Shown here: one piece after another, positions 7,042 to 45,012 of the stretch
Position numbering within the stretch: the first letter of the stretch is position 1
How the letters are laid out: every line of letters begins with the position of its first letter
NCBI GenBank assembly: GCA_017505705.1
Contig: JAFVOS010000011.1
Coordinates: 1-45,448, forward strand
Length of the DNA: 45,448 nt
Source: Alphaproteobacteria bacterium
GTDB taxonomy: Bacteria; Pseudomonadota; Alphaproteobacteria; Rs-D84
Direction: 5' to 3'
The notes under the pieces: generated by a model
What the model saw: the letters and a program-made list of their open reading frames with translations, nothing else
Databases searched by the model: none
What the model was told of the DNA's origin: nothing
Translations under genes and position numbers: made by a program

Positions 7042-7067
7042 AAAAAATGCCCATTTGGGCATTTTTT
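7042..7067 (-). terminator. Intrinsic terminator overlapping the tolB stop
   Basis: AAAAAATGCCC (7042-7052) pairs with GGGCATTTTTT (7057-7067) around ATTT. It includes the last bases of the tolB stop codon, and on the minus strand a U-tract follows the stem. Confidence 0.85.
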
Positions 7068-8385
7068 AAGGTAATCTTGGCGACCAGGTCGGCTCTACCC
7101 CATTAATATCATCTGGCAATTCAATATCATATACATTCTGACCAGTGATATCAACACTGCGAATATGGCTGATACGCCCAATATCGTCAGTATCTTTTTC
7201 TGTCTCATAATAAACAATGCGTCGTGACCCCGGCGCCCACGATGGCGCTTCCATAAACCAGCCACCAGCCAGTATTTTTTCATTTCTGCCCTGTGGATTC
7301 ATGATACCAACATAGAAAGTATCATCTGCAATCTTAGTAAAGGCAATAAACTGTCCATCTGGTGACCAGGCTGGTGTTGCATAACGCCCTGCCCCATATG
7401 TAATACGCTTTTCTTCACCAGATTCTAAATCCAATACATGGATTTGCTGACGACCAGATCGATCCGAATTAAAGGCCAGCTTTTTACCATCCGGCGAATA
7501 AGACGGACTGGTATTTAACGAATAGCCAAACGTTAATTGACGCAATTTTTTTGTTTCCATATCATATTCATATATATGCGAAATCCCCTTTTTAACCAAC
7601 GACAATGCAATCTTTGTACCATCTGGTGAAAAACGTGGCGCATAGGTCATACCATCAAACTGCCCCAGACGACGTTGTTCACCTGTATTCAGATCCAAAG
7701 TCCATACCATCGGATCTTCATTATAATAAGACAAAAAGACCACAGATTGCATATTAGGCGAAAAATGTGGTGACATAACAAAGTCTTCTTTATTAGACAA
7801 ATAGCGCATTCCATATCCGTCCTGATCCATAATCGCCATACGCTTATTTCTGTTATGCACCGGTCCCGTTTCCGCAATAAAAACAATCTGTGTATCAAAA
7901 TATCCCTCTTCCCCGGTCAAGCGTTCATAGATTGCATCTGCCATAATATGCGCCAACCGTCGTACAGATTTGCGTGACGCAACCAAAGATTGTGCTTCTA
8001 TTTGCTCTTTACCGTCAACATCCCAAACATAAAATTCTAACTTATACCTATCCCCAGATTCTGCAAATAATTTTGCCTGAACCAGCACCTGGGTTTTTAT
8101 TGCCGCCCAAGACTTAAAATTTGGCATTTTGCCCATCTTTACATATTCTGGGAACGCATCATGATTTACAATACGAAATAAACCTGTACGTTTTAAATCC
8201 GCCTCAACCACTGTGCGAATGACCGCCGCATCAGATGCACTTGCATTACCAGCCAATTCAAATTTTTGCACTGCAATCGATGTCGGCTTTACACCACCAG
8301 CCACAATATCTACTTTTAATTCAGCATGAACATTGCCGATAAATAAAAGCACCCCAAACAAACAATAAAAAAACTTTTTTAACAT
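7066..8385 (-). CDS. tolB: Tol-Pal system beta-propeller protein TolB
   Basis: This 439-residue periplasmic protein has a signal peptide, FFYCLFGVLLFIGNVHA, and an N-terminal alpha/beta domain (about 25-170; ELAGNASASDAAVIRTVVEADLKRTGLF). A six-bladed propeller follows, with repeated blades FSPDGTKIALS, YSPDGKKLAFNSDRSGRQQI, WSPDGQFIAF and WAPGSRRIVYY. TolB binds Pal and TolA during outer-membrane constriction. It has a good GGAAGG ribosome-binding site. Unusually, it is not followed by pal: the codirectional downstream gene is a nuclease, and pal is on the opposite strand 3.4 kb away. tolQ, tolR and tolA are not in the window. Confidence 0.95.
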   Translation of the reverse strand: MLKKFFYCLFGVLLFIGNVHAELKVDIVAGGVKPTSIAVQKFELAGNASASDAAVIRTVVEADLKRTGLFRIVNHDAFPEYVKMGKMPNFKSWAAIKTQVLVQAKLFAESGDRYKLEFYVWDVDGKEQIEAQSLVASRKSVRRLAHIMADAIYERLTGEEGYFDTQIVFIAETGPVHNRNKRMAIMDQDGYGMRYLSNKEDFVMSPHFSPNMQSVVFLSYYNEDPMVWTLDLNTGEQRRLGQFDGMTYAPRFSPDGTKIALSLVKKGISHIYEYDMETKKLRQLTFGYSLNTSPSYSPDGKKLAFNSDRSGRQQIHVLDLESGEEKRITYGAGRYATPAWSPDGQFIAFTKIADDTFYVGIMNPQGRNEKILAGGWFMEAPSWAPGSRRIVYYETEKDTDDIGRISHIRSVDITGQNVYDIELPDDINGVEPTWSPRLP

Positions 8386-8522
8386 TATTATCTTCCTTCC
8401 ACTGTTATATATACGCCAATTTTATATGCACAAAATACAAAAATCAAACCTAAATCACACAATATACAAATGCCCCCACAAACATACATACAACCGCCTA
8501 TATCAGCGCCAATATATTTGTA

Positions 8523-8559
8523 TTGACAATTGTATTTACAATGGTATAGTTCGTTGTAA
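8523..8559 (+). promoter_or_regulatory. Promoter with an overlapping inverted repeat (possible autoregulatory operator)
   Basis: TTGACA (8523-8528), a 16-nt spacer and TATAGT (8545-8550) form a strong promoter for the ribbon-helix-helix gene. TTACAA (8536-8541) and TTGTAA (8554-8559) are exact inverted arms flanking the -10 box, and further TTGTA/TACAA words lie nearby. Control by the encoded DNA-binding protein is an inference. Confidence 0.55.
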
Positions 8560-8595
8560 GTACGCCGGTATTGTATAAAGTATAGGAGATTGCAT

Positions 8596-8820
8596 ATGCC
8601 AAACGTTATGCAGCAATTATTTATAATGAACATTGAATCTTTGTTGCGTGAATATGCCGCATACAAGGCATTCAATAAATCAGATTGTGTAATCAATATG
8701 CGCATCCCCCGTCCTATTCTGGACAAAATCAAAGAACTGGCCGACGCCCAACACGTACCATATCAATCACTGATATCATCCGTACTATTCTCGCTGGCAA
8801 ATATCGAAGACAAAAAATAA
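8596..8820 (+). CDS. Ribbon-helix-helix (CopG/BrnA-like) DNA-binding protein
   Basis: This 74-residue protein starts at the ATG at 8596, chosen because GGAG lies 7 nt upstream; an earlier TTG has no ribosome-binding site. The C-terminal half matches the CopG antitoxin pattern: a beta strand CVINMRIPRPI, helix LDKIKELADAQHV, then PYQSLISSVLFSLAN. Such proteins form dimers that bind operators and often repress their own promoter. An N-terminal helix (about residues 1-28) may bind a partner. The usual BrnT or RelE toxin is absent; a DinD-like gene follows 20 nt downstream. It is either an orphan antitoxin or a small regulator. Confidence 0.7.
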   Translation: MPNVMQQLFIMNIESLLREYAAYKAFNKSDCVINMRIPRPILDKIKELADAQHVPYQSLISSVLFSLANIEDKK

Positions 8821-8840
8821 ATCAACCTAATCTGCCACCA

Positions 8841-9749
8841 ATGACAACGCAACCAAACAAAGAAATCACCTTTACAACACTAGCAAATACCTGTCATCAT
8901 ATTAACGATGAACAGACATTATTTTTACCCAACACAAACGATACAGAATATTGGTTATATTCTGATTTATACAATTTATTTTTTGCACCACCATTTGATT
9001 TAAAAAATATGGACGGCCACGTTTTTCAAAGTTTTGACACAACACCGACACCAAAAAATATAACACCATATTCATTTCTGCGCCAGCATGCACAATTTTG
9101 CAATCACGAATACAATATTCGCAGCCCATATCCCCCATACAATATGATAAAAAAATATGGTCTGGACATGAAGTTAAGTCGCTATGCATGTTTTTGCCTG
9201 TTTCGCAATATTCCAAATCTTGTTTTTACCCGCACGTATTTCATGATGCCAAATGCAGATTTTAAAACCGTCTATGACACATCGTACAAATATGCACGAA
9301 TTTACCTGCGTGAACAACTTCAAGATTCAGAACGTCGCCTGAATGGCGTTTTAAAAAACATTGACGCAAACATCGCCCTGTTTCGACACGAAGCATTCAA
9401 GACATTTTATAACGAAATATACACAGAACAAATCATCGATGCATATAACCTGGGCAAAAATATTACATTAGCCGACCACATGGGCGCACCATCATTATAC
9501 GCACGCAAATATGCGATTGATTCTGCGATAAGCAAATTTGACTACGCATTACACAAAGACCTGCGCTCATTTGCCATGATATTCGACCACGAACTGCGCA
9601 TTGCCAGATCCAAGATGATAAGCAAATTTAACACAACCCCAGAAAAAGATATACACAAACAATCAATAAAATCATTGATATCAGAATACAAGGCTGCCGA
9701 GAAAGCATTTATAAAACAATACGCCCCCTGCACCCTTAACACAAAATAA
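8841..9749 (+). CDS. Diverged DinD-like protein
   Basis: This 302-residue protein begins at the ATG at 8841; the frame is open further upstream but that part overlaps the preceding gene. Similarity to the DNA-damage-inducible protein D family is by motif memory. The N-terminus has EYWLYSDLYNLF (family: YW.ar.L...L). The middle reads LSRYACFCLFRNIPN then TRTYFMM (family: LSRYACYLI.QNGdP.....QTYFA) and YLREQLQDSERRLNGVL (family: ReKL..sEK.lsgv). The C-terminal part has ITLADHMG and KFDYALHKDLRS. Identity is low and the sequence is Asn/Tyr/Lys-rich and A+T-rich compared with neighbours. DinD in E. coli is SOS-induced and modulates RecA. A weakly related phage-type antirepressor is the alternative. 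Confidence 0.55.
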   Translation: MTTQPNKEITFTTLANTCHHINDEQTLFLPNTNDTEYWLYSDLYNLFFAPPFDLKNMDGHVFQSFDTTPTPKNITPYSFLRQHAQFCNHEYNIRSPYPPYNMIKKYGLDMKLSRYACFCLFRNIPNLVFTRTYFMMPNADFKTVYDTSYKYARIYLREQLQDSERRLNGVLKNIDANIALFRHEAFKTFYNEIYTEQIIDAYNLGKNITLADHMGAPSLYARKYAIDSAISKFDYALHKDLRSFAMIFDHELRIARSKMISKFNTTPEKDIHKQSIKSLISEYKAAEKAFIKQYAPCTLNTK

Positions 9750-9750
9750 G

Positions 9751-9775
9751 ACCCGACATTTGTCGGGTTTTATTT
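9751..9775. terminator. Intrinsic terminator after the DinD-like gene
   Basis: ACCCGAC (9751-9757) pairs with GTCGGGT (9762-9768) around ATTT, followed by TTTATTTTTA. It lies between convergent genes and may serve both. Confidence 0.85.
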
Positions 9776-10417
9776 TTATTTATTTGGAATAATTTTAATT
9801 TCCACACGACGATTTTGTGCACGCCCCGCCGCATCAGAATTAGACGCAATCGGATTAGACGATCCCATACCCAATACTTCAAATCGTGACGCCTTTACAC
9901 CCTGGCCCTGCAAATATGCTGCAACCGACTGTGCTCTCGATTTAGACAAAGCCAAATTATAATCTGCACTGCCTGTACTGTCTGTATGCCCCGAAACCAT
10001 CACCGTAGAATTACTATACTTCTTCAACACCTTGGCCACTGAATTTAACACTGGATAGAACGAAGAATTAATATCTGCCGAATCGGTTCTGAATGTAATA
10101 TTACCCGGCATAATCAAACGAATATTATCATCAGATTCAATAACCTGAACACCGGTTGACGCCAATTCTTGACGCAATTCAGCCGCCTGCACATCCAAAT
10201 AATATCCAACACCACCACCAACTGCTGCACCTGCCAGCGCACCAACCAACGCACCTTCACTGCTATTTCTGCTGCCAATCAAGGCCCCAGTCGTTGCCCC
10301 AATCGCCGTCCCCCATGTTGATTTCGCAGTCTGTGTCTGACCAGTATATGGATTAACCGTTGTACATCCTGCAACCAACACAACAGCCATTAACAAAGCA
10401 AATAATTTTTTCATCAC
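9776..10417 (-). CDS. OmpA-family lipoprotein with glycine-zipper segment (YiaD-like)
   Basis: This 213-residue lipoprotein has the lipobox VAGC (Cys about residue 18). A glycine-zipper stretch (GTAIGATTGALIG, GALVGALAGAAVGGGVGYY; about residues 36-76) probably inserts in or lines a membrane. A C-terminal OmpA domain (about 100-213) carries TFRTDSADINSSF, VSGHTDSTGSADYN and NRRVEIKI, the peptidoglycan-binding pattern. The arrangement matches E. coli YiaD. It probably ties the outer membrane to the wall. The start has AAGGAG; two adjacent ATGs are possible. It is a separate gene from pal and has a different architecture. Confidence 0.85.
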   Translation of the reverse strand: MMKKLFALLMAVVLVAGCTTVNPYTGQTQTAKSTWGTAIGATTGALIGSRNSSEGALVGALAGAAVGGGVGYYLDVQAAELRQELASTGVQVIESDDNIRLIMPGNITFRTDSADINSSFYPVLNSVAKVLKKYSNSTVMVSGHTDSTGSADYNLALSKSRAQSVAAYLQGQGVKASRFEVLGMGSSNPIASNSDAAGRAQNRRVEIKIIPNK

Positions 10418-24038: not shown

Positions 24039-26018
24039 ATGACAGAGAAAAATACACACACATATGACGCATCAGACATCCAGGTACTGGAAGGTCTGGA
24101 ACCCGTACGCCTGCGCCCGGGAATGTATATTGGTGGAACCGACGAAAAAGCTTGGCACCATTTACCAATTGAAATTATGGACAATTCCATTGACGAAGCT
24201 GTTGCTGGCTTTGCCAAGAAAATCACCGTTAATTTAATTGATTCAAAAACAATTGAAATTACCGACGACGGACGTGGAATACCGGTTGACGAACATCCAA
24301 AATACCCCGGCAAATCCGCACTTGAGGTTATTTTAACCACCCTGCATTCTGGGGGCAAATTTAACAATAATGTTTACAAAACCAGTGGTGGCCTGCATGG
24401 GGTTGGATCTGCGGTTGTAAACGCCCTGTCGTCTGAGATGATTGTTGACATTGCACGTGACGGTTATAATTGGCATCAAACATTTTCACGTGGTCTGACG
24501 ACATCTCCGATGACACGTGGGGATGCAACCAACAAACATGGCACAAAAATTCGTTTTACAATTGACGACGAAATATTTGGCACATCTGCTGTATTCAAAC
24601 CTGTGAAAATTTATCGCATGGCCCGGGCCAAGGCATTTTTATCACGTGGTGTAAAAATCGAATGGCAATGCAACCAGAATTTATTAACCGAAGACATGGG
24701 AATTCCCGCCAGTACAACATTCTATTATCCAAATGGCGTGGCAGATTTCCTGGCTGAAAAGACAGATTCTAAACCACGTATTCTGCCACGCATTTTCAGC
24801 GGCAGTGTTGATTTTCCAGACGACAGTGGTCGTGTTGAATGGGCCCTAACATTTTTAACCGACGAAAACGGTGCTGCATCTGATGATGGATTTTTCTCGT
24901 CATACTGCAATACAATTGCGACAATTGACGGTGGCACACATGAAACAGGCTTTAAAACCGCCATCACCAAGGGCATCAAGGCATACGGCGAAAAAGTAAA
25001 CAACAAAGCTGCTGCCACAATTATCGGCGAAGACGTTTTTGATTCGGTTGCAGCGATTGTATCTGTCTTTTATAAAACACCACAATTTCTGGGACAAACC
25101 AAAGAAAAACTGTCCAATCCTGAAATTGCCCGATACACAGAAAATGCACTGCGTGACCCATGGGAAATGTTTTTGGCATCTGATCCAAAAACAGCGAACG
25201 CATTATTGGAATTTGTAATCAATCTGGCGAACGCCCGAATAAAAACGAAACAAGTCAAAGACGTTGCACGCAAAACCCCAACAAAACGTATTCGCATGCC
25301 TGCGAAACTGGCCGACTGTTCAAAACATGGTATTGCCGGCACAGAATTATTTATCGTCGAAGGGGAATCTGCTGGCGGCACCGCCAAACAGGCACGTGAT
25401 CGTGCAACCCAGGCAATCATGCCCCTGCGTGGCAAGGTATTAAATGTTATATCAAATTCAGACGAACGCTTTGGCAACAATCGTGAATTAAATGATTTGA
25501 TTGACATAATCGGTGCAGGCACCGCCAAAGATTGGAACGAAGATAAATTACGTTATGAAAAAATTATTGTCATGACCGATGCCGACGTTGACGGCAGCCA
25601 CATTGCATCATTACTGATGGCATTTTTCTATCAGTTTATGCCCCAACTAATTTATGGTGGCCACTTATATCTATCATGCCCACCACTGTATAAATTAACA
25701 TGTGGAACCGAATCGGTTTATGTCGACACAGACGAAGAATTAGAGAATCTGAAATCAACAAAATACAAAAATAAAAAGATTGAAATATCTCGATTCAAGG
25801 GGCTTGGCGAAATGATGCCCAATCAATTAAAAGAAACAACAATGTCGCCAAAGACGCGTCGATTAATTCGTGTTGATTTACCACCACGCACCGACGAAGG
25901 TGCCGAAGACACTGAAAAAACACGAACAATCGTTTCTGAACTGATGGGGAAAAAGCCAGAATTTCGATTCCGCTTTATTACAGAACACGCCCAGTTTGTC
26001 AAAGACCTGTTCGTATAA
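24039..26018 (+). CDS. parE: DNA topoisomerase IV subunit B (ParE)
   Basis: This 659-residue type II topoisomerase subunit pairs with ParC to decatenate chromosomes. The GHKL ATPase shows IMDNSIDEAVAG and DDGRGIPVDEHP, and HSGGKFNNNVYKTSGGLHGVG is present. The TOPRIM domain has VEGESAGGTAKQARDRATQ (about 440) and TDADVDGSHIASLLMAFF (about 512). The stretch ELNDLIDIIGAGTAKDW and the end MGKKPEFRFRFITEHAQF are ParE-type in alphaproteobacteria rather than GyrB. The start at 24039 has no Shine-Dalgarno; TTGCCA (24000) with TAATAA (24023) 17 nt later would give a leader of only a few bases. Confidence 0.9.
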   Translation: MTEKNTHTYDASDIQVLEGLEPVRLRPGMYIGGTDEKAWHHLPIEIMDNSIDEAVAGFAKKITVNLIDSKTIEITDDGRGIPVDEHPKYPGKSALEVILTTLHSGGKFNNNVYKTSGGLHGVGSAVVNALSSEMIVDIARDGYNWHQTFSRGLTTSPMTRGDATNKHGTKIRFTIDDEIFGTSAVFKPVKIYRMARAKAFLSRGVKIEWQCNQNLLTEDMGIPASTTFYYPNGVADFLAEKTDSKPRILPRIFSGSVDFPDDSGRVEWALTFLTDENGAASDDGFFSSYCNTIATIDGGTHETGFKTAITKGIKAYGEKVNNKAAATIIGEDVFDSVAAIVSVFYKTPQFLGQTKEKLSNPEIARYTENALRDPWEMFLASDPKTANALLEFVINLANARIKTKQVKDVARKTPTKRIRMPAKLADCSKHGIAGTELFIVEGESAGGTAKQARDRATQAIMPLRGKVLNVISNSDERFGNNRELNDLIDIIGAGTAKDWNEDKLRYEKIIVMTDADVDGSHIASLLMAFFYQFMPQLIYGGHLYLSCPPLYKLTCGTESVYVDTDEELENLKSTKYKNKKIEISRFKGLGEMMPNQLKETTMSPKTRRLIRVDLPPRTDEGAEDTEKTRTIVSELMGKKPEFRFRFITEHAQFVKDLFV

Positions 26019-26031
26019 AAATCAAAAATGC

Positions 26032-26065
26032 GCTATACGCATAAAAACCGCCATTTGGCGGTTTT
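26032..26065. terminator. GCTATACGCAT motif plus intrinsic terminator after parE
   Basis: GCTATACGCATAAAAACCG begins at 26032. AAAACCGCC (26044-26052) pairs with GGCGGTTTT (26057-26065) around ATTT. It lies between convergent genes and abuts the stop of the minus-strand gene. Confidence 0.85.
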
Positions 26066-26066
26066 A

Positions 26067-26450
26067 CTATTTCTGTTTTACGAAATTATTTCGGATACGA
26101 TTTTGTGTAATATTTTCAACTATACGTTTTTTTGCTTTTGACAAATCCATAACCAGCGTATCACCCACATTTACAATATGCTTACCGTCACAGGGATAGT
26201 TATAATAAACATCATGGCCATCCTTAGTCACCCCTGTAAAAGAAACAAGCGGCGTATCATAACTTGTATTATGCATCCCTGTCCCCAGAACAAGAACGGT
26301 ATCGACTTTATTTTTCATTGCTGCATCTGTCTTGAATTTCTTGTCATCGTTCCCAAATAACTTCACCCCTACAAACAATGACGCCCCTGTCAAACCAGCT
26401 GCCAACAAACACAAAACAGATATATATACAATATTGTCTAATTTTTTCAT
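26067..26450 (-). CDS. Membrane-anchored protein of an unnamed local family (member C)
   Basis: This 127-residue protein has one N-terminal transmembrane helix (IVYISVLCLLAAGLTGASLFV) and a soluble domain with KVDTVLVLGTG, GHDVYYNYP, VNVGDTLVMDL and a tail RIVENITQNRIRNNFVKQK. It aligns by motif with members A (21468-21869) and B (22339-22752). The start at 26450 is the ATG before MKKLDN; an earlier in-frame start exists without a good ribosome-binding site. It is convergent with parE. Function unknown. Confidence 0.65.
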   Translation of the reverse strand: MKKLDNIVYISVLCLLAAGLTGASLFVGVKLFGNDDKKFKTDAAMKNKVDTVLVLGTGMHNTSYDTPLVSFTGVTKDGHDVYYNYPCDGKHIVNVGDTLVMDLSKAKKRIVENITQNRIRNNFVKQK

Positions 26451-26469
26451 TTTAAAATATAAGAACAAA

Positions 26470-26497
26470 AAAATCCCCACCTGATGGGGGGGATTTT
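26470..26497 (-). terminator. Intrinsic terminator after small lipoprotein gene
   Basis: AAAATCCCC (26470-26478) pairs with GGGGATTTT (26489-26497). On the minus strand it is followed by TTTTGTTC. Confidence 0.75.
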
Positions 26498-26500
26498 ATA

Positions 26501-26821
26501 TTAGTTAACTTTTACATATTTTGCCCCAGCTGCACAACCACATGGTTTTGCCGCAGGAACAATAATCTTACGATCATGACGTGGTGCCTGGCCCATCATA
26601 TCACGATTAAACAATGTTTCACATCTTGTATTACGATAAACAACTTTTTTATCTGCATCCAATGAACGAATTTCATCACTGAAATAACGACCACTTTCCC
26701 CAGTATAAAATACACAATCTTCGCCATCTTGAACATAACGAACATCGCTTTCATAGTAATCATAGCCGGCACATCCCGCTAACACAATCAATGCCAGAAC
26801 AGACATAAATGCTTTTTTCAT
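26501..26821 (-). CDS. Small Cys-containing lipoprotein
   Basis: This 106-residue lipoprotein has the lipobox LAGC (Cys about residue 17). The mature part contains DYYESDVRYVQDGEDCVFY, RSLDADKKVVYRNTRCETLF and CGCAAGAKYVKVN. Four further Cys could form disulphides in the periplasm. The opening tyrosine-rich stretch and spaced Cys resemble other short alphaproteobacterial lipoproteins, but I recognise no family. It has its own AAGG ribosome-binding site and a terminator. Confidence 0.7.
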   Translation of the reverse strand: MKKAFMSVLALIVLAGCAGYDYYESDVRYVQDGEDCVFYTGESGRYFSDEIRSLDADKKVVYRNTRCETLFNRDMMGQAPRHDRKIIVPAAKPCGCAAGAKYVKVN

Positions 26822-26948
26822 ATTTTTGCCTTTTTTGTTTTTGTGTCCTCTCTATCGTGCCCCCGTTTCCGTCCAATTGTTGCAAAAGATATAAAAATGT
26901 CAAGTTTTTGTAATAAATATGGTATAATTTTATCAAAAGGATTTATTT

Positions 26949-27905
26949 ATGAAATACACCGATTTTGGCTTGGTTAACACGCACAACATGTTTCTGTCTG
27001 CACTTCGTGGACACTATGCGATTCCTGCTTTTAATTTTTATAACATGGAAACCTTAAACGCTATTTTATCTGCGGCCCGCACAACACACAGTCCAATAAT
27101 CCTGGCGGTATCAGAATCTGCAATGAAATATATGGGCGAAGACATGTTGTTAGGAATGATACGTGGCGCCCACATAACCCCCAAAGAACAAATTGCTTTG
27201 CACCTGGATCATGGCGGTTCGGTTGACGCATGCATACATGCGATCAATCTTGGTTTTTCTTCTGTTATGATTGATGCCAGCAAATTATCATACCAAGACA
27301 ACATTCAACTAACACGCCAGGTTGTTGAATACGCCCACAAACACAACGTATCTGTCGAAGCGGAACTGGGGATACTGTCTGGCATCGAAGACGAAAATAC
27401 TAAATCAACAAAATCACAGTATACAAATCCATCTGACGTAATCGATTTTGTTAATGCAACAGGCACCGATTCGCTGGCTATTGCAATCGGCACCAGTCAT
27501 GGTGCATATAAACGCAAATCAGAAAACGAAGAATTGCGTTTTGATATACTGGACGAAATAGCCAAACAATTACCAAACTTTCCGCTGGTATTACATGGTG
27601 CATCACAAATTCCAGAACAACTTGTTCAGACAATAAACAAATTCGGTGGCGCTATGTCAAACGCACTTGGCATCACACCACAACAATTACGTCATGCAAC
27701 CCAAAAGAACATCTGCAAAATCAACGTTGACAGTGATTTGCGCCTTGCAATGACTGCGGCGGTGCGCCAATCATTGGCAACAACCCCTACAAATTTTAAC
27801 CCACGTGAATATCTGGGGGATGGCATAAAAGAAATGACTGCTGTTTGCATCAATGAAATAAAAAATATTATGGGTTCAGATAACAAATTACACCCTTGCG
27901 CTTGA
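26949..27905 (+). CDS. fba: Class II fructose-bisphosphate aldolase
   Basis: This 318-residue zinc-dependent aldolase interconverts fructose-1,6-bisphosphate with DHAP and glyceraldehyde-3-phosphate. Expected signatures are in order: GHYAIPAFNFYNMET, LHLDHGGSVDACIHAI (zinc His and catalytic Asp), SVEAELG, AIGTSHGAYK (zinc His) and LHGASQIP (zinc His; LHGGS in many relatives) followed by KINVDSDLRLAMTAAVR. Length fits the family. A -10 element TATAAT (26923-26928) and AAAGGA precede the ATG. A tagatose-bisphosphate aldolase specificity cannot be excluded from motifs alone. Confidence 0.9.
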   Translation: MKYTDFGLVNTHNMFLSALRGHYAIPAFNFYNMETLNAILSAARTTHSPIILAVSESAMKYMGEDMLLGMIRGAHITPKEQIALHLDHGGSVDACIHAINLGFSSVMIDASKLSYQDNIQLTRQVVEYAHKHNVSVEAELGILSGIEDENTKSTKSQYTNPSDVIDFVNATGTDSLAIAIGTSHGAYKRKSENEELRFDILDEIAKQLPNFPLVLHGASQIPEQLVQTINKFGGAMSNALGITPQQLRHATQKNICKINVDSDLRLAMTAAVRQSLATTPTNFNPREYLGDGIKEMTAVCINEIKNIMGSDNKLHPCA

Positions 27906-42315: not shown

Positions 42316-43806
42316 CTAGAATTTAAAATCAACACCGGCGGCGATTTTATATCCCCGCCCTATTTCATTTTCAACACAGCTAACATCTGCATAACCGCCA
42401 ACCATATCAAATTCAGACATAAATCTGGCGGACGCCCCTATGTATAAACCAGCATCAGATTCGATATTTGCACGCAACGCATAATTATATTTAATTCCCA
42501 AAACAGTTACTTCATATCCAACATCAAACCCGATACGCCCCATGTAATCCGATTCGTTTTGATTTAGTATTTCTATATTTTCCACAACAACACCAACATA
42601 CGTCGACATATAAAAACCATCTTTATAATCAAAGCGATGGCCAACATCTACGCCTGCATAATATGAATAGCCAATCGGATTATCAACAGATGCATCACCA
42701 TCAAAAACATTAGAAATATCAAACATTGTTAAATTAGCACCCATCAACCCACGCACAAAACCAATTTCAGCATCATATTGTGCATAAGTCCCAACACCCA
42801 TCATCATACCACTGTATTCATCATATCCATCTGTCCCAGACAAACTATTAACATAGCCACGAACACCAACATCCAAATTCATAAAATCAAAACATGTACC
42901 AATTTGTGTACCATAAGAATAAGAATCATCTGAAAACATTCCAAATGCACCCACACCTGTCTTCACATTAAAATCATTCATATCAAACATATTAAGCATA
43001 CGAACACCGTCCATCAAATTAATCGGCGCTATACGCACTGAATCCGCCATTATTTTATATAAATCTTCTATCGATTGTGCTGAATCCATATGCGACAAGA
43101 AATTATTTGCATCCATCTCTTCACGCAAACTGTTCAAATATCTTCCTGTCGCATTATTCATAATTTTAGCATAGTCTGTTTCACGCACCAATTTGACATA
43201 TAAATCATCTTCTGCCACATATGTTTTTATCGCCATCAGTGGATTATTCACATCCGCATCAACAAACACTTGTAAATCATTATCAACATTTTTCAAAACA
43301 TATGTTTGCTGAATACGTTCTACATCATTCATAACCAAGAAAACATTTTCATGAAATCTGACACTAGATAAATCTGGATTATCGACATCCATCACAACCC
43401 TGGAATTATAAATATCTACATCATGTGCATTTAAAGATAAATTTAATATATCAGAAAAATTAACATTGCTTATATTCATGATTTTGACATCAAATGAATT
43501 TAAGCCCGCATCAATTTTAGATAAATGACTTTTATCAGAAACAACCTGTGTTATTTTTGCATTACTTCCACCAACAAATTCTGATTTTATTGTTCCTGTA
43601 TTAATAATTTCCAGCTGACAGCCATCACAAACAGTAATTTTATCAGCAATTATTGTCCCATGATTTTCAATATACCCACCATTGGTCACCAATATATCTG
43701 GCACAGAAACAAAGACTCCATCTTGCACCACAACAGATTTATCAATTACATACTGATATGCATTATAAACATCTGTATCAATATAAATAAAATCTGCTGG
43801 TATCAC
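42316..43806 (-). CDS. Autotransporter-like outer-membrane protein lacking a signal peptide
   Basis: The frame gives about 496 residues. The N-terminal part is a parallel beta-helix-like passenger (VTNGGYIENHGTIIADKITV, LEIINTGTIKSEFVGG). A linker around residues 230-275 is followed by a C-terminal barrel of about 12 strands (GVGAFGMFSDDSYSYG, GYSYYAGVDVGHRFDYKDGF, GLYIGASARFM) ending in DFKF. No signal peptide precedes the passenger at either possible GTG start (43806, with GGAG 9 nt upstream, or 43821). Only about 70 nt separate it from the terminator of the upstream gene. It may be 5'-truncated or out of use. The barrel itself looks intact. Confidence 0.65.
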   Translation of the reverse strand: MIPADFIYIDTDVYNAYQYVIDKSVVVQDGVFVSVPDILVTNGGYIENHGTIIADKITVCDGCQLEIINTGTIKSEFVGGSNAKITQVVSDKSHLSKIDAGLNSFDVKIMNISNVNFSDILNLSLNAHDVDIYNSRVVMDVDNPDLSSVRFHENVFLVMNDVERIQQTYVLKNVDNDLQVFVDADVNNPLMAIKTYVAEDDLYVKLVRETDYAKIMNNATGRYLNSLREEMDANNFLSHMDSAQSIEDLYKIMADSVRIAPINLMDGVRMLNMFDMNDFNVKTGVGAFGMFSDDSYSYGTQIGTCFDFMNLDVGVRGYVNSLSGTDGYDEYSGMMMGVGTYAQYDAEIGFVRGLMGANLTMFDISNVFDGDASVDNPIGYSYYAGVDVGHRFDYKDGFYMSTYVGVVVENIEILNQNESDYMGRIGFDVGYEVTVLGIKYNYALRANIESDAGLYIGASARFMSEFDMVGGYADVSCVENEIGRGYKIAAGVDFKF

Positions 43807-43873
43807 GTTCTTATGCTCCACCCGACCAGGCTAGCACATAAGAAGTTATTCCTAAAAGCAAATAATTAAAAAC

Positions 43874-43897
43874 CCCAGTATTTACTGGGATTTTTTT
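43874..43897. terminator. Intrinsic terminator after Cys-rich lipoprotein gene
   Basis: CCCAGT (43874-43879) pairs with ACTGGG (43884-43889) around ATTT. On the minus strand GGTTTTTAATT follows; on the plus strand ATTTTTTT follows. Confidence 0.75.
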
Positions 43898-43903
43898 GAT
43901 GGG

Positions 43904-44449
43904 TTATTTTTCCAAAACGCCCCATCCGGCTTTATATCCACCATCACGTTCCAAATAAATTTTTGCACCATTCAACTGTGCTACACTTACCCCTTGAATC
44001 ATATAAGTTTGATTCAATCTGCGACTTTCACCAGTTTCCAACATTGGGAATTTCACATTGATGGCTGTTTTATTACAGCAACCTGTTTCGCCATATGCAC
44101 ATACGCCACACTTGTACAATTTTACATTATATGGCACTGCTGGGCGTAAATCTTTCAAATCAACAACCATTTTCAGACCATTATCTGTGTCATGAAATTT
44201 AATATGCCCCATATGCGATGTACCACCATGACTGCTGCGTGTATACATTTTTGCATAAACCTTGTCAACATCTGCATTTTCATATGTCTGATAAACGACA
44301 ATAGTATCTGATTCAATCAGTTCAACCGGCTGTGCATTACGTGCAACTTTTTTATGATGCATTGCTTTTTTTTCAGGACAGCCACCAACACATGCACTTA
44401 ACATTACAGCAGCCCCCAAAACAGATGATAACACAAACATTTTTTTCAT
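43904..44449 (-). CDS. Cys-rich lipoprotein, possibly Cu/Zn-SOD-like fold without metal ligands
   Basis: This 181-residue lipoprotein starts at the ATG near 44449, with AGGAG upstream, and has the lipobox LSAC (Cys about residue 20). The mature part is His/Lys-rich at first (KKAMHHKKVARNAQ), then SHMGHIKFHDTDNGLKMVV, DLKDLRPAVPYNVKLYKCGVC, YGETGCCNKTAINV and GAKIYLERDGGYKAGWGVLEK. The order G-I-x-F, L-x-L-x-P, C-x-x-C and a terminal G-A-x-I-x-L...GWGVL is reminiscent of periplasmic Cu/Zn superoxide dismutases. The copper-binding HGFHxH is replaced by YNVKLY, so catalysis is unlikely. The fold suggestion is speculative. Confidence 0.6.
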   Translation of the reverse strand: MKKMFVLSSVLGAAVMLSACVGGCPEKKAMHHKKVARNAQPVELIESDTIVVYQTYENADVDKVYAKMYTRSSHGGTSHMGHIKFHDTDNGLKMVVDLKDLRPAVPYNVKLYKCGVCAYGETGCCNKTAINVKFPMLETGESRRLNQTYMIQGVSVAQLNGAKIYLERDGGYKAGWGVLEK

Positions 44450-44635
44450 AAGTATTCTCCTTTTTTTCTTATGGTTACATAACATATTCTATAATATTTT
44501 TTTACAATTTTCGCCAGGTTTGAATACCTAGGATTTCCCAGAAAACATGCGTATAGCGCAAGAATACCGTCCTGTACATTTAACAATAAAAAACTGATAT
44601 TTTTATTATACATATAACAAACAAAAGGATAAAAA
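44450..44635. other. Intergenic region with an inverted TATACGCA-type word
   Basis: This roughly 185-bp gap lies between divergent genes. It holds TGCGTATAGCGC (44548-44559), the reverse complement of the GCTATACGCA word found before terminators. TTATTATACAT around 44612-44622 could be a -10 region for the plus-strand gene at 44636, whose AAAGGAT ribosome-binding site follows. No RNA gene is seen. Confidence 0.5.
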
Positions 44636-44992
44636 ATGTATCAATTATTACAAATGTTAATTGCATTTAAATACGCATGTAAGATTAATCATTGGGCAAC
44701 AGATAAATACGCATCACATCTGTTATATGATCGTCTTACCGAAGACATCGACACATGGACGGATACCATTGCCGAATCGCATTTTATGGCAAACGACAAA
44801 AAGAAAGTCTTTAAATCAGACATACTTAATTCAAAATTAATCGAAAAAAACCTTGTCTTGTTTTGTGAAAAAATTATCAGTTATCTTGAAAAATTACAAA
44901 ACGACGATGATTTAAACGAGGGCGACTTGTCTCTCCTGGGCGACATAGAATCTGGCTTTTTAAGCAAGCTGGCATTAGCAAAACTGATATAA
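44636..44992 (+). CDS. Small Dps/ferritin-like helical protein (DUF5856-like)
   Basis: This 118-residue, all-helical protein begins MYQLLQMLIAFKYACKINHW, then ATDKYASHLLYDRLTEDIDTW. The HW-x-T-x3-YA-x-H-x3-Y-x2-L-x3-ID spacing recalls a Dps/ferritin-like helix pair, as in the small DUF5856 proteins of phages and bacteria. Candidate metal ligands are His19, His27 region and Asp/Glu of EDIDTW. No proof of iron binding can be read from sequence. AAAGGAT precedes the ATG. A terminator follows directly. It is a monocistronic gene. Confidence 0.55.
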   Translation: MYQLLQMLIAFKYACKINHWATDKYASHLLYDRLTEDIDTWTDTIAESHFMANDKKKVFKSDILNSKLIEKNLVLFCEKIISYLEKLQNDDDLNEGDLSLLGDIESGFLSKLALAKLI

Positions 44993-44996
44993 CAAT

Positions 44997-45012
44997 GGCC
45001 CCAAATGGGGCC
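44997..45012 (+). terminator. Intrinsic terminator after the Dps-like gene
   Basis: GGCCCC (44997-45002) pairs with GGGGCC (45007-45012) around AAAT, followed by TTTAATCTATTT. Confidence 0.7.

Follow-up and report, generated by a model that had tools for sequence, protein, structure and literature searches.

Does a small ribbon-helix-helix (RHH) gene with a DinD-like gene directly behind it form a toxin-antitoxin or defence module, or is it a long-standing regulator whose operon has gained an accessory gene? The question is raised by a locus in a 45,448-nucleotide stretch of DNA (G000:C9:1-45448; here called the window), which sits within a 0.96 Mb genome. The records related to this genome are mostly MAGs of gut Alphaproteobacteria, and their hosts are ruminants and other animals.

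The gene pair and its surroundings

The initial annotation described an RHH gene of the CopG/BrnA type with a strong promoter of its own, followed 20 nt later by a DinD-like gene, the pair being flanked by tolB and a terminator. All of these features were confirmed, with tolB divergent from the pair (Table 1). The pair had also been described as A+T-richer than its neighbours, which was taken to suggest insertion. Its G+C content (0.36-0.37) is indeed below that of the immediate flanks, but equal or lower values are found elsewhere in the window (0.36 at 26001-27000 and 0.34-0.35 at 42501-45000), and therefore composition is no argument for insertion. Insertion itself was not borne out, because throughout the genus, and in most cases outside it, the locus occupies a fixed place beside tolB.

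Table 1. Features of the RHH/DinD-like locus, in window positions
Feature	Position	Strand	Basis or remark
tolB, divergent neighbour kept beside the RHH gene	7066..8385	-	named by eye from the sequence
tolB promoter-like site, TTGATT-17-TAAAAT	8419..8447	-	weak: number of such sites within chance
12-bp tandem array, ~11 units, proposed RHH operator	about 8459..8590		periodicity and conservation
Promoter TTGACA-16-TATAGT, TG before the -10, inside the array	8523..8550	+	11/12 matches
RHH protein, CopG-type, 74 aa	8596..8820 (ATG 8596, stop 8818-8820)	+	PF12441, E 1e-8
DinD-like protein, 302 aa	8841..9749 (ATG 8841, stop 9747-9749)	+	NF008573, E 7.8e-12
Intrinsic terminator-like hairpin and T run	9743..9776	+	sequence

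Some other neighbours were recorded by eye. In one genome (G015, locus L175), two small overlapping genes on the opposite strand lie 28-641 bases past the stop of a solitary RHH gene and resemble a ParE/RelE-type toxin and a Phd-type antitoxin. At L081, L085, L094, L101 and others, an ORF resembling class II fructose-bisphosphate aldolase (YAVPAFNFYNMET) was seen; in many genus genomes it lies ~1 kb after the RHH stop, near an EF-P-like ORF. Rs-D84 genomes have been described as being without class II fructose-bisphosphate aldolase (PMC12306168).

The first protein of the pair scored 36.2 bits against the curated Pfam profile CopG_antitoxin (PF12441; cut-off 28), which places its domain among the RHH (MetJ/Arc/CopG) DNA-binding proteins, and the match covers the RHH end of the profile only (25-64 to 37-76 of 79). 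Its AlphaFold monomer was of low confidence (pLDDT 67), is too weak to use and decides nothing; such a value is to be expected for an obligate dimer like an RHH protein. The gene was detected in 149 of 156 genus genomes, in practically all of them as a single copy, and in 23 of 27 genomes from other genera of the family. Some of the genus genomes in which it was not detected are incomplete.

The second protein matched the NCBIfam DinD profile (NF008573) over residues 109-292, at 45.1 bits, below the equivalog cut-off of 242, and it matched phrog_8036 with an E value of 7.9e-18. The DinD profile also recognised 31 of 42 relatives of this protein. Judging from these matches, the partner is a real but remote and diverged DinD homologue, a member of the DinD superfamily in the wide sense. 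A single match to Pfam TnsA_C (E 0.033) was below the cut-off and was discarded. Searches of the PDB with the partner sequence and profile gave nothing credible, and sequence comparison did not turn up any solved structure of DinD.

The AlphaFold model of the partner, built with the 42 relatives, had a pLDDT of 93.7. Foldseek searches with this model against the PDB and viral libraries returned no significant match. When the candidates were realigned, DdrC from Deinococcus radiodurans (PDB 7udi and 8u0g) gave Z scores of 11.4 and 10.4, and the next row 5.0. Helical folds can reach middling Z scores by chance. The DdrC alignment covers 190 residues with 7% identity, an rmsd of 13.4 A and no sequence match; the large rmsd reflects parts that are placed differently in the partner model and in DdrC. 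The resemblance is suggestive of a structural relationship of Deinococcus DdrC to the DinD family. DdrC is induced upon damage and associates with both single- and double-stranded DNA (PMC5436757), and DinD is counted among the RecA filament regulators (PMC4457935).

A 12-bp array over the promoter and a second site

The inverted TTACAA/TTGTAA repeat of the initial annotation is present (8536-8541 and 8555-8560), but its arms turned out to be parts of two units of the 12-bp array. In the aligned upstream regions, units of the type yGTAwwtACAnn extend from -5 to +5 around TGTATTGACA; unit -5 lies at 8459-8470, unit 0 (TGTATTGACAAT) at 8519-8530 and unit +5 (AGTATAGGAGAT) at 8579-8590. Over 145 genomes, the identity at lags of 12, 24 and 36 was 0.52, 0.53 and 0.48, respectively, as compared with 0.19-0.33 at other lags. 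For the window by itself the lag-12 identity was 0.469, a value reached by 0 of 2000 dinucleotide-preserving shuffles. The -35, the -10 and the ribosome site are all in register with the units. The array is conserved over about 143 genomes, with a mean majority frequency per unit of 0.65-0.94 (fourfold sites of the RHH gene, 0.50; left flank, 0.42-0.52), and its strongest units are those over the RHH promoter. The 12-bp periodicity was kept in 14 of 16 RHH loci from other genera. Repeated short operator-like units at the own promoter are a feature of the RHH family, and we infer from this predicted operator that the RHH protein binds the array and represses transcription.

LexA above the cut-off was found in none of 59 genus genomes, three of which had weak matches below it, and the window's own genome had no LexA match at all; RecA was found in 28 of 29 genomes. 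Because the genus is without recognisable LexA, the DinD-like gene is probably not under ordinary LexA control here. A candidate LexA box at the promoter (GTTC-N7-GTAC) was rejected, since it shares positions with array units 2-3 and is not conserved among relatives, in a genus without LexA.

One rival reading takes the RHH protein as chiefly a regulator of the divergent tolB, and so of the envelope, with autoregulation in addition. Where a genus contig extends far enough, tolB adjoins the RHH gene almost without exception, and it lies nearby in 13 of 16 other-genus loci; the array ends 12 bp from the tolB promoter-like site. However, that promoter call is within chance, the strongest units are those over the RHH promoter, and three other-genus loci without tolB nearby still carry the array, clearly in L368 and L378 and more weakly in L380. 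We regard tolB as a rather unlikely main target.

A further rival holds that the RHH protein together with the array serves mainly as a nucleoprotein element, structural or centromere-like and comparable to Omega, ParG or ParR with iterons, to which the operon would be secondary. About 11 contiguous units overlapping the own promoter do resemble the arrangement at RHH centromere-binding proteins: Omega of pSM19035 has 7-10 consecutive 7-bp repeats over promoters (PMC9499535), and ParR binds iteron arrays (PMC5016525). The RHH gene is also single-copy and is kept without its partner. Nevertheless, the NTPase gene that RHH-based partition systems require does not lie beside it, the neighbours in genus and other-genus loci being either tolB together with the DinD-like partner or else unrelated genes, and the second site described below is operator-like, with two units only. 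A centromere-like role as the main function is therefore very unlikely.

The second site was found by pattern scans of the genomes. As site definitions, the palindrome ATTGTAwwTACAAT with two mismatches (only ~2x control in the genome) and a double unit with three mismatches (a count equal to control) were discarded, whereas a double unit with 0 or 1 mismatch separated signal from chance. Of 151 genus genomes, 17 carry the exact double unit, each time before one particular gene, here called X; the control gave 0. With one mismatch allowed, matches were obtained in 44 genomes, almost only at the RHH and X promoters. Gene X encodes ~111 aa, is about 80% identical across the genus, was found order-wide, and is divergent from mraZ wherever it was read (also at L287 and L311). 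In the window genome it lies at G000:C3:16689-17021 on the minus strand, with the double unit at G000:C3:17076-17097. All 30 aligned X promoters contain a double unit, 22 with 12-bp spacing and at most two mismatches and the other 8 with 13-bp spacing. Gene X had no Pfam match and no PDB profile match; one weak NCBIfam match and one weak PHROGs match were not believed.

Three genomes from more distant genera lacked the double site before X, and three nearer other-genus genomes had one unit only. X is therefore a later extension of the proposed regulon and not the ancestral reason for the RHH protein. Where both the partner and the X site are absent, this protein may control tolB, serve array architecture or act at targets too degenerate for our scans. 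In genome G115 the X site is present and the RHH gene was not detected; the assembly may be missing this part, or another protein may bind the X site.

Recurrence, loss and possible exchange of the partner

The neighbourhood check proposed in the initial annotation was run on 149 genus RHH loci read in orientation, and the pairing recurs. An ORF of at least 260 aa lies directly behind the RHH gene in 94 of them, and 93 of these ORFs are all homologous to one another, their pairwise identities in local alignments having a median of 28%. In an order-wide profile search, nearly all full-length genus partners were located at the RHH locus. Among the 135 scorable genus loci the partner was present in 89 and absent from 46, and this distribution requires at least 16 changes on the tolB tree. 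By profile, the partner was absent from all 16 other-genus RHH loci read, which represent ten genera; one weak BLAST match in L379 was not confirmed by profile. By this distribution, the pair arose at the base of the genus or inside it, through addition of the partner. Since the other-genus loci keep the RHH gene, and mostly the array, without the partner, the repressor and its array are, on the same evidence, older than the pair.

The two genes also change at very different rates. Over 86 partnered genomes the median identities were 77% for tolB, 82% for the RHH protein and 22% for the partner. RHH conservation was similar in genomes without the partner (median 85%, with tolB at 75%). Partner distances correlated with tolB distances (r 0.81) and hardly with RHH distances (0.31), and after tolB was taken into account nothing was left of the RHH-partner correlation (partial about 0.03, hand computed). 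In close genome pairs, dN/dS was 0.00-0.04 for the RHH gene, 0.02-0.07 for tolB and 0.05-0.19 for the partner. The partner is thus under purifying selection and, by these ratios, is a working, fast-changing gene and not a decaying one.

In three pairs of close genomes (L115/L116, L120/L122 and L132/L138), the divergence of the partner conflicts with that of the flanking genes. The RHH proteins of L115 and L116 are identical and their tolB is 94% identical, while the partners share 37% identity (36% in the multiple alignment); in L132/L138 the partner dS is 0.04 and the tolB dS is 0.25. These conflicts suggest that partner alleles alone have been exchanged.

At L080, where the RHH gene stands alone, a 58-aa remnant of the partner C-terminus follows it, ~230-405 bases from the RHH start, a case of decay in place.

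A few DinD-like copies were found away from the RHH locus (G026:C5:67932-68513, G020:C2:96106-96762, G144:C37:7326-7967, G185:C1:10350-10922, G187:C71:5738-6370 and G188:C42:2505-3143), some of them in other genera of the family. They match the C-terminal two thirds of the partner profile and are a possible source of the partner. Spread of the partner by phage or plasmid was considered and set aside, the DinD-type matches there being only weak and partial.

These results bear directly on the proposal that the pair is a defence module of two genes or a type II toxin-antitoxin system, in which the RHH protein would bind and neutralise its DinD-like partner and also repress the operon. The layout imitates such a module well: the RHH gene comes first, the gap is short, the sites lie at the own promoter and the profile is that of a CopG antitoxin; furthermore, the partner is fast-varying and patchy, which is common among defence genes. 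Of the defining features, those open to testing nevertheless failed. Pairing is not regular, with RHH genes standing alone at about a third of the genus loci and at every other-genus locus read; co-diversification is lacking, as in L115/L116; and a fixed chromosomal place is atypical of these modules. A toxin-antitoxin or defence function is therefore disfavoured, and we consider it distinctly unlikely. The earlier suggestion that the small protein represses or neutralises its partner thus fares unevenly: the promoter repeats suggest autoregulation, while neutralisation agrees neither with the RHH genes kept without a partner nor with the missing co-diversification.

A proposed regulatory unit and its relation to known systems

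The reading that we favour, with moderate confidence, is that an old autoregulatory RHH repressor acts on the array and that its transcription unit has gained a DinD/DdrC-like accessory gene. The lineage-specific RHH protein would bind cooperatively along the ~11 units over its own promoter and start region, shutting down its own transcription unit and perhaps touching the divergent tolB. In this genus it would also read the two-unit site before X, the core gene next to mraZ. As a later addition to the unit, the DinD-like gene would be expressed once the repressor leaves the array, and its product may, like DinD and DdrC, have DNA or RecA filaments as its target. This accessory gene appears to be lost or swapped repeatedly, while the repressor stays.

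A more far-reaching version, which we offer as speculation and think doubtful, is a LexA-free damage or stress circuit in these reduced-genome gut Alphaproteobacteria. The array-bound RHH protein would be the switch, and its release would open a two-promoter regulon consisting of gene X and the RHH operon itself, whose DinD/DdrC-type protein would act on RecA or at DNA ends; the effector would diversify under pressure from phages or foreign DNA.

The locus combines a strictly conserved small regulator with an operon slot holding a fast-changing, often lost gene of the DNA-damage type, in a lineage without recognisable LexA. It cautions that layout alone is insufficient for calling RHH-first gene pairs toxin-antitoxin systems, and it offers a testable predicted operator, with 12-bp units at two promoters, for an unstudied regulator.

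Among known systems, Omega, ParG and ParR share with this locus a small RHH protein whose own promoter is overlapped by a long run of contiguous repeats; the present array differs in its 12-bp units and chromosomal location, with no NTPase gene alongside. The CopG/BrnA-type antitoxins (PF12441) likewise have the RHH domain, the first position in the operon and sites at their own promoter, but about a third of the genus and 16 of 16 other-genus loci examined have the RHH gene described here without a companion. Antitoxins usually have few sites, and the present array is far longer. The partner is homologous to E. coli DinD (NF008573/PRK11525) over the C-terminal two thirds, whereas its N-terminal part has diverged and its score is far under the cut-off; DinD of E. 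coli is a lone SOS gene, and the partner is placed behind the RHH promoter, recognisable LexA being missing from its genus. DdrC, the only structural match of the partner model with a high Z score, differs in being under IrrE/DdrO control.
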